A stretch of 5,249 nucleotides of DNA, from assembly GCA_027356675.1 (NCBI GenBank), contig DAHVXO010000145.1, positions 1-5,249 of the forward strand. The letters are read 5' to 3'. The position numbers and the translations under genes are program-made. A model generated the notes under the pieces. The model ran no database searches. It saw only the letters and a list, made by a program, of their open reading frames with translations, and was not told where the DNA came from. Positions 1 through 5,249 of this stretch are shown here, one piece after another. Source of the stretch: Symbiobacteriaceae bacterium. Lineage in GTDB: Bacteria; Bacillota_E; Symbiobacteriia; Symbiobacteriales; Symbiobacteriaceae. The stretch's first letter is position 1. Every line of letters starts with the position of its first letter.

Positions 1-437
1 TTGAAATCAAGGCGCAGAAGGCTGCGAATCCCCCTCTTGCCCGTATCCCAACCGCCAACCACGATGGCGGCTGCGTAGATACCGACCATGAGCCAGTTGG
101 GACCAACACGCTCCGCTACCCACCCGGCCGTGGCAAGCACGGCTGCGATACCGGTCGGCAGCAGGTGCGGGTTGGAGGCCCAGAAGGAACGCTGGAGGGC
201 GGGCAGCTTGGCGTGACGGACCGCGACGTTATGTGGTTTCCCGACCGCCACCACCAGATTCGGATCGACATTTCCTTCCACAGTGACCTTCGCAGCACCG
301 AAATTCACTTCAACCCTGGAGACTCCAGGGAGAGCCGCTACGTCCTTTTCGAACTTTGCGGCGCAGTCCGTTCAAGTGAGGCCGGCAAGCCGGAAGATTT
401 GCTTCGTGGCAGGAGCCGCCTGAGAGTAAGTACTCAT
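1..437 (-). CDS. cadA: CadA/ZntA-type heavy-metal P1B ATPase, N-terminal part, with in-frame UGA read as selenocysteine (partial, runs off left edge)
   Basis: This is the start of a P-type ATPase that exports soft divalent metals (Zn, Cd, Pb) across the inner membrane. About 145 codons are visible. Residues about 12-65 form an HMA metal-binding domain (KQIFRLAGLT, UGA, TDCAAKFEKDV, then PGVSRVEVNFGAAKVTV). Residues about 91-111 and 115-130 are the first two membrane segments, followed by GKRGIRSLLRLDF, the usual lead into the third. Recalled staphylococcal CadA aligns throughout (GFTCANCAGKFEKNV, PGVQDAKVNFGASK, FVGSIVIGGY). Codon 22 is TGA (374-372), exactly at the first Cys of CxxC; the second Cys is residue 25. 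No other stop occurs, and a SECIS-like hairpin follows, so selenocysteine is the preferred reading. The ATG at 437 overlaps the cadC stop (ATGA), indicating translational coupling. The catalytic DKTGT and the CPC motif lie outside the window. Alternatives are a nonsense mutation or a base-call error. Zn/Cd specificity is inferred from the CadA-like sequence and the cadC partner. Confidence 0.85.
314..330 (-). other. Perfect 7-bp hairpin in the cadA coding sequence downstream of the SECIS candidate
   Basis: CCCTGGA (330-324 read on the minus strand) and TCCAGGG (320-314) are perfect complements around a 3-nt loop GUC. The loop begins 48 nt after the UGA, which is too far for a standard SECIS. 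It has no U-tract, so it is not a terminator. It might stall or stack on the SECIS, or it may simply follow from coding Leu-Pro-Gly-Val-Ser-Arg. Confidence 0.4.
334..362 (-). promoter_or_regulatory. Candidate bacterial SECIS element just 3' of the UGA
   Basis: On the minus strand, 9 nt after the UGA, GCCGC (362-358) pairs with GCGGC (338-334). An AAA/GTA internal loop follows (357-355 against 341-339). An upper stem pairs GUUC (354-351) with GGAC (345-342), including one G-U pair, and closes the apical loop GAAAA (350-346). The loop begins with G and starts 21 nt after the UGA. Bacterial SECIS elements are known to have a short upper stem, a guanine among the first loop bases and a UGA-to-loop spacing of roughly 16-37 nt. 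The fold was worked out by eye, with no energy calculation. Confidence 0.7.
372..374 (-). other. In-frame UGA, predicted selenocysteine codon (Sec22 of the CadA-like ATPase)
   Basis: The minus-strand TGA is codon 22 counted from the ATG at 437. It replaces the first cysteine of the HMA-domain CxxC motif, giving UxxC (GLT-U-TDC). A single TGA at a redox/metal-binding Cys, with family-like sequence on both sides and no other stop, is the classic signature of a bacterial selenoprotein. A random nonsense mutation would hit this exact residue only rarely. A TGC or TGT to TGA sequencing error remains possible. Confidence 0.8.
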
Positions 438-817
438 CGGCGTTTTTCCTCTCGGAAATGTTCGAGGGCCTGGTTGATGATGCTGACGACGTGGCTATCG
501 TCGAGCGAGTAGTACACCATTTTCCCTTGCTTCCGGTACTTGGCAAGGCCCATATTCCTGAGCAAGCGCAACTGATGGGCGGCGGTGGCATCACTTACAC
601 CCAAAAGCGCTGCCACATCGCAAACACAGAGTTCCTCTTTGGAAAGTGCGAGTGCGATTTGGACACGTGTATCGTCTGCCAGAGCCTTGAACAGCAGAGC
701 CAGCCCTTGTTTCCCGACCAGCTCGTGCTTGAGGCGATTGACTTTCTCAGGGTTAAAGCAGAAGACCTCGCAGCTGTCCTGGTCGCTGGATATGCCCACT
801 CTCTTCACGTCGCCCAT
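434..817 (-). CDS. cadC: CadC-type ArsR/SmtB-family metal-sensing repressor
   Basis: This 127-residue winged-helix repressor is expected to bind the cad operator and release it on binding Cd, Pb or Zn. Both classic CadC sites are visible. The alpha3N site has Cys16 and Cys20 (DSCEVFCFNPEKVNRLKHEL; CadC has DTCEIFCYDEEKVNRI) and Cys64 and Cys66 in ELCVCDVA. The alpha5 site candidates are Asp107, His109, His120 and Glu123. The recognition helix lies in VSDATAAHQLRLLRNMGLA (about 74-92), followed by the wing KYRKQGKMVYYSLDD. The ATG at 817 is preceded by a modest AAGGCGG about ten bases upstream; a GTG at codon 4 is an alternative. Its stop overlaps the cadA ATG by four bases. A near-consensus sigma70 promoter with a short palindrome lies upstream, which fits autoregulation. 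The family is very secure, and the Cd/Pb/Zn response is strongly suggested by the ligand set. Confidence 0.93.
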   Translation of the reverse strand: MGDVKRVGISSDQDSCEVFCFNPEKVNRLKHELVGKQGLALLFKALADDTRVQIALALSKEELCVCDVAALLGVSDATAAHQLRLLRNMGLAKYRKQGKMVYYSLDDSHVVSIINQALEHFREEKRR

Positions 818-2190: not shown

Positions 2191-3333
2191 TCAGGGGCGG
2201 CGCCCGTGAAGGACACCGTTGACCAACCACTCGGATGCCAGCGCGATCTCTTCCTTGGTGGTCCACCGGCCAAGACTCAGACGCACGGCTCCGGTCGCGA
2301 TTTCATCCGGGACCCCCATCTCCCTTAGCACGGGAGAGGGTGCCGCGACACCTGCGTGGCAGGCGGACCCCGTGGAAGCTGCGACTTCACGCACGTTGCT
2401 CAGCAGCTCATAGCCAGGGATTCCTCGGAAACTCACGTTCAGTGTGTTGGGGAGGCGCTCTGTCGGATGGCCGTTGAAGTGGATATTATTGATGCGCGCA
2501 CGGAGGTCGGCGAACAGTTGATCCCGGAGTCCGCTCAAGCGGGTGGACTCCTCCGGCAGGTGCGCCCCTGCGATCGCACACGCTTTGCCCAGGCCCACCA
2601 TGTACGGGACGTTCTCTGTCCCGGCTCGCAGTCCACCCTCATGTCCTGCCCCGTGAATCAGGGAGTCTAATACGGTTCCCCGCCTTACATATAAAGCGCC
2701 AATACCCTTTGGAGCGTATAGCTTATGCCCGGCGACTGTCAGCAGGTCAACTTGCAGGGTTTCCACATTTACGGGGACCTTACCGACTGCCTGGGCTGCA
2801 TCTGTATGGAAGGGAATCCGGAGTCTCCGCGCGATGGCGCCAATCTCCGCTATGGGCTGCAAGGTGCTTGTATCGTTGTTGGCCATCATGATGGTGATCA
2901 GAATCGTATCCGGACGAACGGCACGTTCCACATCGCCCGGATCCACGCGCCCGGTCTCGTCCACGGGCACAAAGGTTACAGTGTAGCCATGACGGGCTTC
3001 CAGATACCTGCAGGTGTTCAAAACGGCCGGATGTTCAACGGTGGATGTGATGATGTGGCGGCCCCGGCCCTGGTTGGCAAACGCAATCCCCTTGATGGCG
3101 AGATTGTTGCTCTCGCTACCACCGCCCGTGAAGATTACCTCCCCGGGGGCGCACCCCAGGAGCGTAGCGACTCTGGTCCGTGACCAATCGACCGCATCCT
3201 TGGCCTGCTCACCATATGCGTGGGCGCTGGACGGGTTTCCAAAGTTCTGAGTGAAATATGGCTGCATCTCCACAACCACATCCGGATCGACCGGGGTGGT
3301 CGCATTATAGTCGAGATATACCGGAAGTCTCAC
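2191..3333 (-). CDS. NifS-like cysteine desulfurase with selenocysteine-lyase-like C-terminus
   Basis: This PLP-dependent class V aminotransferase-fold enzyme takes sulfur (or selenium) from cysteine (or selenocysteine) as a persulfide on its active-site Cys. Numbering the GTG start as 1: His101 (STVEHPAVL) stacks on PLP, Asp178 and Gln181 (HTDAAQAVGK) contact the cofactor, Lys204 (AGHKLYAPKGIG) forms the Schiff base, Cys325 (STGSACHAG) is catalytic, and Arg351 (VRLSLGRWTT) binds substrate carboxylate. The C-terminal half (RLPNTLNVSFRG, SACHAG, PSPVLREMGVP, GRWTT) resembles mammalian SCLY. Position 102 is Pro, not the Asp recalled as giving human SCLY its Se specificity, so Cys probably also works. 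NNDTST replaces the usual NNETGT. I chose GTG at 3333 because GGAGGT lies seven bases upstream and the product starts MRLPVYLDYNATTP; the ATG at 3351 gives 386 residues. It is the last gene of the DsrEFH-like operon. Confidence 0.92.
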   Translation of the reverse strand: MRLPVYLDYNATTPVDPDVVVEMQPYFTQNFGNPSSAHAYGEQAKDAVDWSRTRVATLLGCAPGEVIFTGGGSESNNLAIKGIAFANQGRGRHIITSTVEHPAVLNTCRYLEARHGYTVTFVPVDETGRVDPGDVERAVRPDTILITIMMANNDTSTLQPIAEIGAIARRLRIPFHTDAAQAVGKVPVNVETLQVDLLTVAGHKLYAPKGIGALYVRRGTVLDSLIHGAGHEGGLRAGTENVPYMVGLGKACAIAGAHLPEESTRLSGLRDQLFADLRARINNIHFNGHPTERLPNTLNVSFRGIPGYELLSNVREVAASTGSACHAGVAAPSPVLREMGVPDEIATGAVRLSLGRWTTKEEIALASEWLVNGVLHGRRP

Positions 3334-3340
3334 ATGGAGC

Positions 3341-3346
3341 ACCTCC
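3341..3346 (-). promoter_or_regulatory. Ribosome binding site deciding the desulfurase start
   Basis: GGAGGT (minus strand) lies seven bases before GTG at 3333. It falls inside the coding sequence if the upstream ATG at 3351 were used. The upstream ATG has only a weak GGTGG four bases away, so the GTG is favoured. Confidence 0.6.
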
Positions 3347-3366
3347 CCCATTGGTCCACCCGTTAC

Positions 3367-3684
3367 CTAAAAGGTACCGAGCGTCCGGTCACTGTTGACC
3401 ATCATCAGATCGACGATGTCGCCGTAGTTACACAGTTGGCAGTCCGGGTGAAGGGACTCGGCACTGTAGCCCCGCAGGGTGAGGTCAGTCGCCAGCACCA
3501 GCACGGAGACGCAGTCCGCCAATGGCACCTCAGGCATATGACCAGTTGCTCCGAGAACGCCATCTTCCAGCAAGCCCAGGGTCACAGCGTGGCCCTCAGC
3601 AGTAAGGTTCCGGATGATCTGAAATGCGCCGCGCGCTGATGGGGACGCGGGGCTGCTCGCGACCAGAACGGCAATGCGCTCCAT
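3367..3684 (-). CDS. DsrH/TusB-like sulfur-relay protein with a CxxC motif
   Basis: This 105-residue cytoplasmic protein of the DsrE/DsrF/DsrH superfamily has an N-terminal beta strand (MERIAVLVASSPAS) and a C-terminal section (VLVLATDLTLRG, YGDIVDLMMVNSDRTLGTF). That section matches the order of E. coli TusB (LNEDLIARG, then YTDFVRLTVKHPSQMAW). The ATG at 3684 is chosen because AGGAGG (3696-3691) sits six bases upstream, overlapping the end of the DsrF-like gene. A longer open frame reaching 3816 has no such support and overlaps that gene. Cys82 and Cys85 form CQLC, with another Cys at 58. TusB as I recall it has no cysteine there, so this subunit may carry persulfide itself. It lies 33 bases upstream of the desulfurase GTG and is probably co-translated. 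The DsrH assignment rests on C-terminal resemblance and gene order. Confidence 0.8.
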   Translation of the reverse strand: MERIAVLVASSPASPSARGAFQIIRNLTAEGHAVTLGLLEDGVLGATGHMPEVPLADCVSVLVLATDLTLRGYSAESLHPDCQLCNYGDIVDLMMVNSDRTLGTF

Positions 3685-3690
3685 AGCTAT

Positions 3691-3696
3691 CCTCCT
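3691..3696 (-). promoter_or_regulatory. Strong Shine-Dalgarno for the DsrH-like gene
   Basis: AGGAGG six bases before ATG at 3684 fixes the start and rejects the longer open frame to 3816. It overlaps the TAG of the preceding DsrF-like gene (3697-3695), suggesting coupled translation. Confidence 0.8.
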
Positions 3697-4063
3697 AAAA
3701 GCGCAGCATGAACTGCGTGGTGGTAAGGATCTTCGCCAGCCCGGCGTCGTCGACCAGATCCACACCCGGGACCAGCTCTTCTGGCGCGATCCCGCGCTTG
3801 TCAAGGCTGGGGCCATGCACCAGCACCCGCGGCACCGGTCCGCCTGGTTTCTGCAGCGAAGCTGTCAGGGCATCGGACAGGGAGGTGAACCCGGTTTGGC
3901 CGGCATGATGCCCTTGGTGGGCCAACCAGACACCATCATCGATCAGCATGGCCACCGCGTCAAACCCTTCGGTCAGTGCACCGTTGACGTGACGCACGCC
4001 CTCGGCCGCGTGGACTGTGCCGTACGGGGCCTGGGAGATCAAGACAGTGATGGACGGTTTCAT
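3695..4063 (-). CDS. DsrF/TusC-like sulfur-relay protein without cysteine
   Basis: This 122-residue DsrE-superfamily protein is the probable middle subunit of a DsrEFH/TusBCD-like complex. The start MKPSITVLISQAPYGTVHAAEGVRHVNGAL resembles the TusC/DsrF opening (a strand, then APYG, then a helix with EG). IDDGV follows as in TusC, and SLDKRGI sits where TusC has SLRQRGL. There is no cysteine in the protein, so it cannot accept persulfide and is likely structural. It starts at ATG 4063 with GGGGGAG five bases upstream and follows the DsrE-like stop by 12 bases. It ends within the next gene's Shine-Dalgarno. The superfamily is secure; the subunit assignment comes from these motifs and the gene order. 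Confidence 0.82.
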   Translation of the reverse strand: MKPSITVLISQAPYGTVHAAEGVRHVNGALTEGFDAVAMLIDDGVWLAHQGHHAGQTGFTSLSDALTASLQKPGGPVPRVLVHGPSLDKRGIAPEELVPGVDLVDDAGLAKILTTTQFMLRF

Positions 4064-4075
4064 GACGTCTCCCCC

Positions 4076-4447
4076 TTACCGCCCGCGGGCGATGAATGCT
4101 TTGCTCTGTGCAATCATGGTAAACAGGTTCTTCAAGGAACTCGGCTGCGGCCCTTCGATGCGCACTTCCCGTTTGAGGCCGCGCAGTTGCAGGCAAGATC
4201 CACAAAGATCGACCCGCAGCCCCTTGGCAGTCAGCGCCAAGATCCGATCGGCGACTGGCGGTAGGCCAATGGCCTTTTGGCCAGCGACGGCGCAGTAAAC
4301 GCCATCGGCAGAGAGGAATAGGTTAACCTGGTAGCCTTTCTCCAGGGCGGCCTCTGCCAGGTTCAGGGTAGTGGACGGAGACTCGGACGCAAAAGGGGTA
4401 GCGGTCAGGAATAGGGTAAGGGCTCGGGGCTGGTCGGTTTCCGGCAT
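4076..4447 (-). CDS. DsrE/TusD-like sulfur-carrier protein
   Basis: This 123-residue DsrE-superfamily protein is the first gene of the operon. It has a strand at 9-16 (ALTLFLTA), a helix TTLNLAEAALEKGYQVNLFLSADGVY typical of the family, and the cysteine loop VDLCGSCLQLRG (Cys82 and Cys85) where TusD/DsrE carries its persulfide-accepting Cys. Cys52 is a third. The sequence then continues EGPQPSSLKNLFTMIAQSKAF, the usual final helix. It likely takes sulfane sulfur (or selenium) from the co-encoded desulfurase or a carrier and passes it on; the recipient is unknown, since no TusA, TusE or DsrC is visible. GGAGGG six bases before the ATG at 4447 fixes the start. It faces the LysR gene across 174 bases of regulatory DNA. 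Confidence 0.85.
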   Translation of the reverse strand: MPETDQPRALTLFLTATPFASESPSTTLNLAEAALEKGYQVNLFLSADGVYCAVAGQKAIGLPPVADRILALTAKGLRVDLCGSCLQLRGLKREVRIEGPQPSSLKNLFTMIAQSKAFIARGR

Positions 4448-4621: not shown

Positions 4622-5249
4622 ATGGATCTCTACCATCTCGCGACCTTCTGCCATGTGGCCCGCGTGCTGAACTTCTCGCGAGCGGCAGAGAAGCTCTCAC
4701 TCAGCCAGTCTGCCGTCTCGCGCCACATCGAAGCACTCGAGCAGGAGTTTGGGATGGAGCTCTTCACGCGCTCCGGTCGCGGCGTTGCCCTCACAGAGGC
4801 GGGCATTCGGCTCCACGACTATGCGGAGCGAATTCTGTCCATCGCCGGGGAGACCACTCGCACCATCGCAGAACTGAAAAACCTGGAAAGCGGCCGCCTC
4901 TGGGTCGGAGCGAGCACAACACCGGGAAACTACCTGTTAGGTCCGGTCATTGCCACTTACCAGCAACGGTACCCCGGGGTGGACGTGCGCCTGGACATCG
5001 CCGATTCACAGGCTGTTTTGCGGTCGGTAGAAGCCGGCGCTGTTGACGCGGCCGTGGTCGCCATCTCCGCCGACGGAACGGGAGTCGATATCGAGCCCTG
5101 CATCCAGGACGAGCTGCTGCTGGTGATGGCCCCGCATCATCCGCTGGTCCGAAGGGCGGACATCCAACTGCCCGACCTGCAGGGAGTGCGCCTCTTTCTG
5201 AGGGAGTCAGGCTCCCATACCAGGCAGGCGGCAGAGGACCACTTTCGCA
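4622..5249 (+). CDS. LysR-family transcriptional regulator (partial, runs off right edge)
   Basis: The first 209 codons of a LysR-type regulator are visible, of roughly 300 expected. Residues 1-60 form the winged helix-turn-helix (HLATFCHVARVLNFSRAA, then LSQSAVSRHIEALEQEFG, then LFTRSGRGVALTEAG), followed by the linker helix. From about residue 90 the effector-binding fold begins (GRLWVGASTTPGNYLLGPVI, RYPGVDVRLDI, VEAGAVDAAVVAI). The style is that of the CysL/CbbR branch, whose effectors are often small metabolites or anions; the effector here is unknown. ATG 4622 is supported by GGGAGGG seven bases upstream. It is divergent from the DsrEFH-desulfurase operon and so probably controls it, with a T-N11-A palindrome in the shared region. 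Selenium-associated LysR regulators exist in Sec-using bacteria, and this could be one, but I cannot confirm it. Confidence 0.92.
   Translation, partial: MDLYHLATFCHVARVLNFSRAAEKLSLSQSAVSRHIEALEQEFGMELFTRSGRGVALTEAGIRLHDYAERILSIAGETTRTIAELKNLESGRLWVGASTTPGNYLLGPVIATYQQRYPGVDVRLDIADSQAVLRSVEAGAVDAAVVAISADGTGVDIEPCIQDELLLVMAPHHPLVRRADIQLPDLQGVRLFLRESGSHTRQAAEDHFR

Follow-up and report, generated by a model that had tools for sequence, protein, structure and literature searches.

The stretch of DNA analysed here (the window, 5,249 nucleotides in all) contains at its left edge the 5' end of a gene for a heavy-metal pump in which codon 22 is TGA. This raises the question of whether the codon ends translation or is read as selenocysteine (Sec) and, in the latter case, which signal in the mRNA directs the reading. 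The genes and codons concerned are these:

3..437, minus strand: 5' part of a CadA/ZntA-type heavy-metal P-type ATPase gene, 145 codons covering the HMA domain and the start of the membrane region (Pfam HMA, 1.9e-12), running off the window
372..374, minus strand: in-frame TGA, codon 22, predicted selenocysteine at the first position of UxxC (from the reading of the frame; the column holds TGA, TGT or TGC in 217 of 217 loci)
363..365, minus strand: TGC for the Cys that is retained, second of the two in the metal-binding motif (from the frame and the alignment)
434..817, minus strand: cadC-like ArsR/SmtB metalloregulator gene encoding ELCVCD (best PDB match CadC 1u2w, 1.4e-27; NF033788, 6.7e-25)
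4622..5248, plus strand: LysR regulator gene, cut by the window edge (best NCBIfam model NF040786, the selenium metabolism-associated LysR family, below cut-off)

The pump frame runs on the minus strand from the ATG at 437-435 to the window edge with the TGA at 374-372 as its sole interruption. The preliminary description had claimed both that the frame is otherwise open and that the TGA falls on the first Cys of the HMA motif, and both are confirmed: the motif reads GLT-U-TDC, in which U replaces the first Cys of GLT-C-xx-C, and the read-through product has an N-terminal HMA domain, matching Pfam PF00403 over residues 15-59 (1.9e-12, 47.8 bits, cut-off 24.8). Among solved structures, the best single-stretch match of this domain is to the HMA domain of a cadmium ATPase, 2aj0, with HMA domains of copper ATPases alongside. 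The TGA-bearing motif pattern occurs once in the window and in none of 200 shuffles. In alignment A1 the product is 54% identical to the pump of the nearest relative, L081, and 50% identical to that of L092, in both of which the frame continues to a whole ATPase. The L081 pump scores 604.8 bits against TIGR01525 (cut-off 346.25) and 531.9 bits against TIGR01512 (cut-off 313.5), and its residues 11-705 align with PDB 4umv at 3e-141. The Lys and Asp near its C-terminus that align with that structure are presumably the TM7 Lys and TM8 Asp of CadA/ZntA P1B-2 ATPases.

A first protein scan of genome contigs with the window's pump fragment found no relative. When one genome per species was scanned for a pattern requiring TGA at the first Cys, at least 120 loci matched, and 116 of the 120 listed belong to the pump family; L009, L019, L024 and L056 were rejected as chance matches that stop after 9-43 codons. 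The pattern loci listed are mostly from Bacillaceae, with others from Desulfotomaculaceae, Thermosediminibacteraceae, Symbiobacteriaceae, Actinomycetota and more; viral contigs scanned with the same pattern gave no match. There are 117 UGA sites in the 116 real loci, for which 82 frames end inside the locus and 35 are cut by its end. In 81 of the 82 completed frames, a further 669-728 codons stay open past the UGA and DKTGT and CPC are present, the remaining frame being the first of two in-frame UGAs of a single gene in L090. This gene, at 3238-5830 of a Syntrophomonas MAG contig, encodes an ATPase whose three HMA domains, arranged in tandem, read C, U and U; the two UGAs lie 72 codons apart, and an ArsR gene precedes them.

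A second search, with alignment A1 and with TGA not required, was run on two samples, one of 199 genomes from a single phylum and one of 150 genomes from a single order, and added both UGA and Cys genes to the set. At the column of the first Cys in 217 loci (each represented by its best match, with the window among them and at least four being one gene fetched twice), the codon is TGA in 160, TGT in 43 and TGC in 14, with nothing else and never TGG; this set of codons is meaningful, its proportions are not, since 40 of the loci were hand-picked (24 for a reported TGA, 16 for its absence) and duplicates remain. UGA and Cys therefore alternate at this position among homologues, which the preliminary description had suggested checking. 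In a tree of 161 thinned rows, built from few columns and with many weak forks, the window clusters with L081 and L092 (SH-aLRT 100), and there are 18 changes between UGA and Cys over the 116 UGA and 44 Cys rows, 6 of them forced by well-supported branches, against 39 with shuffled labels.

Copies with UGA and with Cys are found together in genomes G326, G298, G306, G307 and G267 and at locus L093. The UGA pump of L067 is borne on a plasmid, pBO1 of Cytobacillus oceanisediminis, and L033, on a contig of Bacillus sp. NTK034, has an identical stretch around its UGA. A selenoprotein gene carried on a plasmid would depend on a host able to decode Sec.

The association of the UGA with the machinery for Sec is clearest in the order sample of 150 genomes, the centre of which (G029) is itself a UGA genome. 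Among the matches listed, 37 of the 150 genomes have a match with one TGA, and the TGA is at the column in 35 of these; in G314 and G245 the column is TGC or TGT despite the one-TGA match, and both are without selB. All 35 UGA genomes have selB over cut-off, compared with 40 of the 115 others (Fisher 3e-13, kinship ignored), where the UGA genomes are those of the matches listed and weak UGA copies may be missed. In the phylum sample, the 35 best-matching of the 199 genomes were tested and 33 have selB, such that it separates little there; it is present in 13 out of 13 genomes with a TGA-bearing match (8 of the 13 read at the column), and both genomes without it have Cys.

For the loci found by the pattern, 40 genomes were chosen by hand from the 120 loci listed, 36 of them with real loci and 4 with chance matches. 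In the 36, selB is over cut-off in 33, tRNA-Sec in 32 and at least one of the two in 35; in the 4, neither is over cut-off in any. Among 14 named control genomes, the selB cut-off is passed in 2 and that for tRNA-Sec in 5, scoring for tRNA-Sec having been confined to 80 candidates per genome. Of 11 selected genomes, 9 have selA and 10 have selD over cut-off. The genome of L081 has selA, selB, tRNA-Sec and selD all over cut-off, and that of L092 has selA, selD and tRNA-Sec but no selB over cut-off. G019 (Alicyclobacillus sp. ALC3, locus L095) has a UGA pump and no selA, selB or tRNA-Sec over cut-off in its assembly, while its selD match carries an in-frame TGA; recent loss and an assembly gap are candidate readings of this exception.

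The LysR gene of the window is given no weight here as a clue to selenium. It scores 176.4 bits against NF040786, where the cut-off is 250, over 209 of 298 profile positions, the next best model giving 163.2, and its matches of 34-39% identity in the genomes of 6 of 7 relatives are never on a contig bearing selA or selB over cut-off. Elsewhere in the window, at 2191-4447 on the minus strand, a gene for a NifS-type cysteine desulfurase, 62% identical to copies in the L081 and L092 genomes, adjoins three genes for DsrE/F/H-like small proteins (TusB/C/D-like, all below NCBIfam cut-offs), and this cluster is perhaps a sulfur or selenium relay. A contig with a 99% identical cysteine desulfurase (P0122) exists, and the nearest database relatives of this enzyme that carry organism names are from Bacillota and then Symbiobacteriaceae, which makes a host in Bacillota likely. 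At 1006-2170 on the plus strand, a CsoR/RcnR-family metal repressor gene (nearest model RicR, below cut-off) is directly 5' of one for an EamA-type permease.

If the UGA were a nonsense mutation of a Cys codon, the pump gene would be a pseudogene. TGA is a single step from both TGT and TGC, and the remainder of this gene is outside the window, which leaves some room for such a reading. The presence of TGA at the same codon in 160 of 217 loci, the long open frames that follow it in the 81 genes found by the pattern and its occurrence together with selB all argue against it; for the pump family it is already refuted, and altogether it is highly improbable.

It might instead be supposed that the UGA is the true stop of a short leader and that the ATPase starts just downstream by reinitiation. 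The codon after the UGA is indeed ATG in a number of relatives, and 37 of the 120 listed predicted proteins nearest L081 start there, at a Met before [DN]C, one codon past the Sec position, with 18 starting further in and 65 having CxxC. The codons before the UGA are, however, conserved like a coding frame. In 44 UGA loci recovered without the TGA pattern, positional entropy over the eight codons 5' of the UGA is 0.87, 0.48 and 1.64 for codon positions 1 to 3, and Gly is at -3 in all 44; a count over 159 loci agrees, though the search pattern partly fixes its outcome. Conservation of these eight codons as protein indicates that the UGA is not a stop. In addition, the Cys homologues read straight through, and in the window the UGA is followed by ACG, with the first in-frame start a GTG at 308. 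Reinitiation is thus even less credible than a pseudogene. That the code is changed, so that UGA is Trp or another residue, can be dismissed almost entirely, the frame being open under TGA=W but the column having no TGG in 217 loci and the cadC of the window ending normally at TGA.

The cadC-like gene bears on the start of the pump as well as on its regulation, since its TGA stop overlaps the pump's ATG (ATGA). Its product has the ArsR/SmtB fold, the CVC motif and the N-terminal Cys of CadC, the alignment with 1u2w spanning from the N-terminal Cys through ELCVCD, and the two genes look like a cadC-cadA operon. Of the 160 UGA loci, 137 have an ArsR match upstream in the same orientation, 3 have it on the other strand and 20 have none (6 of these with less than 600 nt upstream); among the 57 Cys loci, 47 have it upstream in the same orientation.

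Since the column holds only TGA, TGT and TGC, UGA is associated with selB, the codons 5' of it are conserved as protein and a CadC-like gene overlaps the start codon, the UGA very likely encodes Sec. It is accordingly predicted with high confidence that codon 22 of the pump gene is translated as selenocysteine, so that the N-terminal HMA domain would have a U-x-x-C metal site. The original proposal of a Sec-containing CadA/ZntA-type pump is upheld by the alternation of UGA and Cys, by selB in the UGA genomes and by downstream RNA kept beyond coding needs in the UGA but not in the Cys genes. The window's own organism would decode Sec, and the pump would have a selenolate ligand for soft metals. 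The product is a metal pump and not a redox enzyme, likely with selenium as a ligand.

The proposal also held that standard annotation starts such genes downstream and loses the metal-binding domain, which is borne out in the predicted proteins nearest L081. Of the first 34 of the 120 listed, 16 start at the Met before [DN]C, 17 begin at a more internal position, some of them on partial contigs, and 1 has CxxC. Mechanical ORF calling on the window likewise starts at the GTG at 308, and the metal motif is lost.

Two RNA hairpins follow the UGA:

334..362, minus strand: hairpin 1, with stems 362-358/338-334 and 354-351/345-342 and the loop GAAAA (350-346) 21 nt 3' of the UGA; fold -13.4 kcal/mol
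314..330, minus strand: hairpin 2, with the 7-bp stem CCCUGGA/UCCAGGG and the loop GUC (323-321) 48 nt 3' of the UGA; fold -11.3 kcal/mol

The stem-loop with a loop G at 21 nt 3' of the UGA, to which the preliminary description had pointed, is present with the stability given above; it is only half of the signal, the hairpin at 330-314 being the other. With the UGA numbered 1-3, hairpin 1 of the window has stems 13-17/37-41 and 21-24/30-33 and a loop that begins with G. As proof in itself it was rejected, because 11% of synonymous recodings fold as well, which is within chance given the protein, and its significance derives from the family. Of 141 distinct UGA genes, 126 have the whole upper stem (21-24/30-33), as do 7 of 54 Cys genes, whereas redrawing codons from each gene's own usage gives 69.6 for the UGA genes (sd 5.3, maximum 86 in 500 runs) and 7.6 for the Cys genes. 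If the stem is slid by 1-3 nt, it is complete in just 1-2 of the 141. It is present in 39 of the 44 UGA loci whose recovery did not rely on the TGA pattern (null 18.9, maximum 26). The lower stem (13-17/37-41) is complete in 18 of 141 UGA genes. Between 35 UGA and 35 Cys genes of the order sample, the Phe at +7 is TTC in 29 versus 9 and the Asn at +10 is AAC in 28 versus 5. The pair 24-30 is CG in 114, TG in 10 and TA in 10, so compensated changes do occur.

Hairpin 2 occurs in two forms, with its loop 40-48 nt after the UGA, and one or the other is present in 131 of 149 distinct UGA genes versus 2 of 54 Cys genes. Form A, with stem 40-43/49-52, is found in 112 of the 149 (synonymous null 29.8, maximum 41 in 500 runs), and the loop is UGGAU in 106 of these 112. 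Form B, which is that of the window, has stem 45-50/56-61 and loop N-GU-N-N. Of the 37 UGA genes that lack form A, 19 have the 4-bp core of form B (null 4.3, maximum 11 in 1000 runs) and 16 its full 6 bp (null mean 0.7, maximum 4 in 1000 runs); it is the stem that is evidence here and not the loop letters, the GU being fixed by a Val codon. The Cys genes (n=54) have form A in 2 cases and form B in none. Among the 44 UGA loci recovered independently of the TGA pattern, form A is present in 27 (null 7.4, maximum 14), form B in 6 (null 1.6, maximum 5) and either in 33.

In the window itself, 3.0% of synonymous recodings have a hairpin 2 as stable, and both full stems recur in 0.5%, the stems having been chosen after they were seen. 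The fold of the whole 66-nt element is matched by 5.8% of synonymous recodings, which is marginal, and by 2 of 200 dinucleotide shuffles. It is at the level of the family that SECIS-like RNA structure after the UGA exceeds the coding constraint. Against Rfam, the window has no match at gathering scores and the element has none at E up to 1.

Eighteen UGA genes lack both forms of hairpin 2. In 14 of these the UGA is followed at 16-37 nt by the G[G/U] loop of a single hairpin, whose stability reaches the published limit of -7.5 kcal/mol in 10 genes and falls short of it in 4. No signal type fits L026, L048, L123 and L129 as scored. A G[G/U] loop at 16-37 nt is present in 1 of the 131 genes with form A or B and in 3 of the 54 Cys genes. 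This replacement of one pattern by the other is the reason why hairpin 2 is proposed to carry the SelB-type loop, although hairpin 1 occupies the stretch in question, so that the replacement is to some extent built in. The loop of L092, GGUCU, presumably resembles the SECIS loop of E. coli fdhF.

It may be that, with Sec inserted as proposed, the SECIS consists of hairpin 1 only and hairpin 2 has an accessory role or serves another purpose. Hairpin 1 falls inside the published limits for bacterial SECIS elements, with G in the first loop position at 21 nt and a fold of -13.4 kcal/mol. Its loop is nevertheless GA rather than G[G/U], with the G shared by 54 of 54 Cys genes, and hairpin 2 is kept beyond coding needs; moreover, the G[G/U] loop at 16-37 nt is found in 14 of 18 members without hairpin 2 against 1 of 131 with it, subject to the contrast being partly built in. 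This reading of the RNA is a possible one, though doubtful. The alternative put forward, tentatively and at slightly less than an even chance, is a tandem SECIS, in which the GA-loop hairpin near the UGA would shorten the path and SelB would read the G[G/U] loop of the second hairpin 40-48 nt from the UGA, the ordinary single-hairpin SECIS and the tandem form replacing each other within one protein family.

On the tandem reading, the CadC-like repressor would sense a soft metal (Cd/Pb/Zn), upon which the cadC-cadA operon would be transcribed. When the ribosome reaches the UGA, the two-hairpin element would recruit SelB with Sec-tRNA, hairpin 1 acting as a spacer or brace while hairpin 2, which would be the one that serves SelB, presents its G[G/U] loop. 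This division of labour between the hairpins is itself tentative, a little short of evenly balanced. In the finished protein, Sec and Cys would be ligands and the metal would be handed on to the pump.

As a protein, the window pump is a new member of a known selenoprotein family. A UxxC heavy-metal ATPase is already catalogued as a predicted selenoprotein in the available passages of PMC2398784 (GOS), PMC9312934 and PMC13188914, the last of which there credits Zhang and Gladyshev 2007, and Table 3 of PMC5029168, in the part available, has it with 25 and 32 in two count columns. Sec in the UxxC of a heavy-metal ATPase is common to these entries and the window; the catalogue passages available are without a description of a SECIS. 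In the case of ABB15669.1, the UxxC would be the HMA motif, judging by the labels 'UxxC' and 'ZntA'. A term search of the accessible portion of PMC12013277 gave no match, and the literature searched, with most subscription journals outside it, has no paper by title on a two-hairpin SECIS or a UGA pump family, which is a weak statement. In the passages available, then, the UGA pump is on record only as a catalogue line; here it is found in 35 of 150 genomes of one order, and also in other Bacillota and in Actinomycetota, often predicted without its metal-binding domain.

The CadA/ZntA P1B-2 ATPases with CxxC (PDB 4umv, 2aj0) have the same domain order, CPC and DKTGT, as read in the relatives, but where they have the first Cys of the HMA motif the window pump has UGA. 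The UxxU metal-binding (seleno)protein NF041115 is a small HMA-like domain also named for Sec in its metal motif, whereas the window has UxxC as part of an ATPase. Membership of NF041115 was considered for the window pump and rejected, at 26.7 bits against a cut-off of 95.

With respect to the RNA, the bacterial SECIS model in the available text of PMC13188914 (section 5) has a loop of 3-9 nt whose first two positions include G, a distance of 16-37 nt to the UGA and an MFE of -7.5 or lower; the loop is 'mostly' G[G/U], and some elements are said there to misfit the model. Hairpin 1 agrees with the model in its loop GAAAA, its distance of 21 nt and its -13.4 kcal/mol, but there is no G[G/U] loop within 16-37 nt, as the loop of hairpin 1 starts with GA and hairpin 2 has its GU loop at a distance of 48 nt. 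Where the model has one hairpin with an early loop G, the pump genes have two, with the G[G/U] loop 40-48 nt after the UGA. The tandem hairpins are therefore a candidate for a new variant of the bacterial SECIS and, if working as proposed, would widen both the accepted distance and the accepted form of this element.
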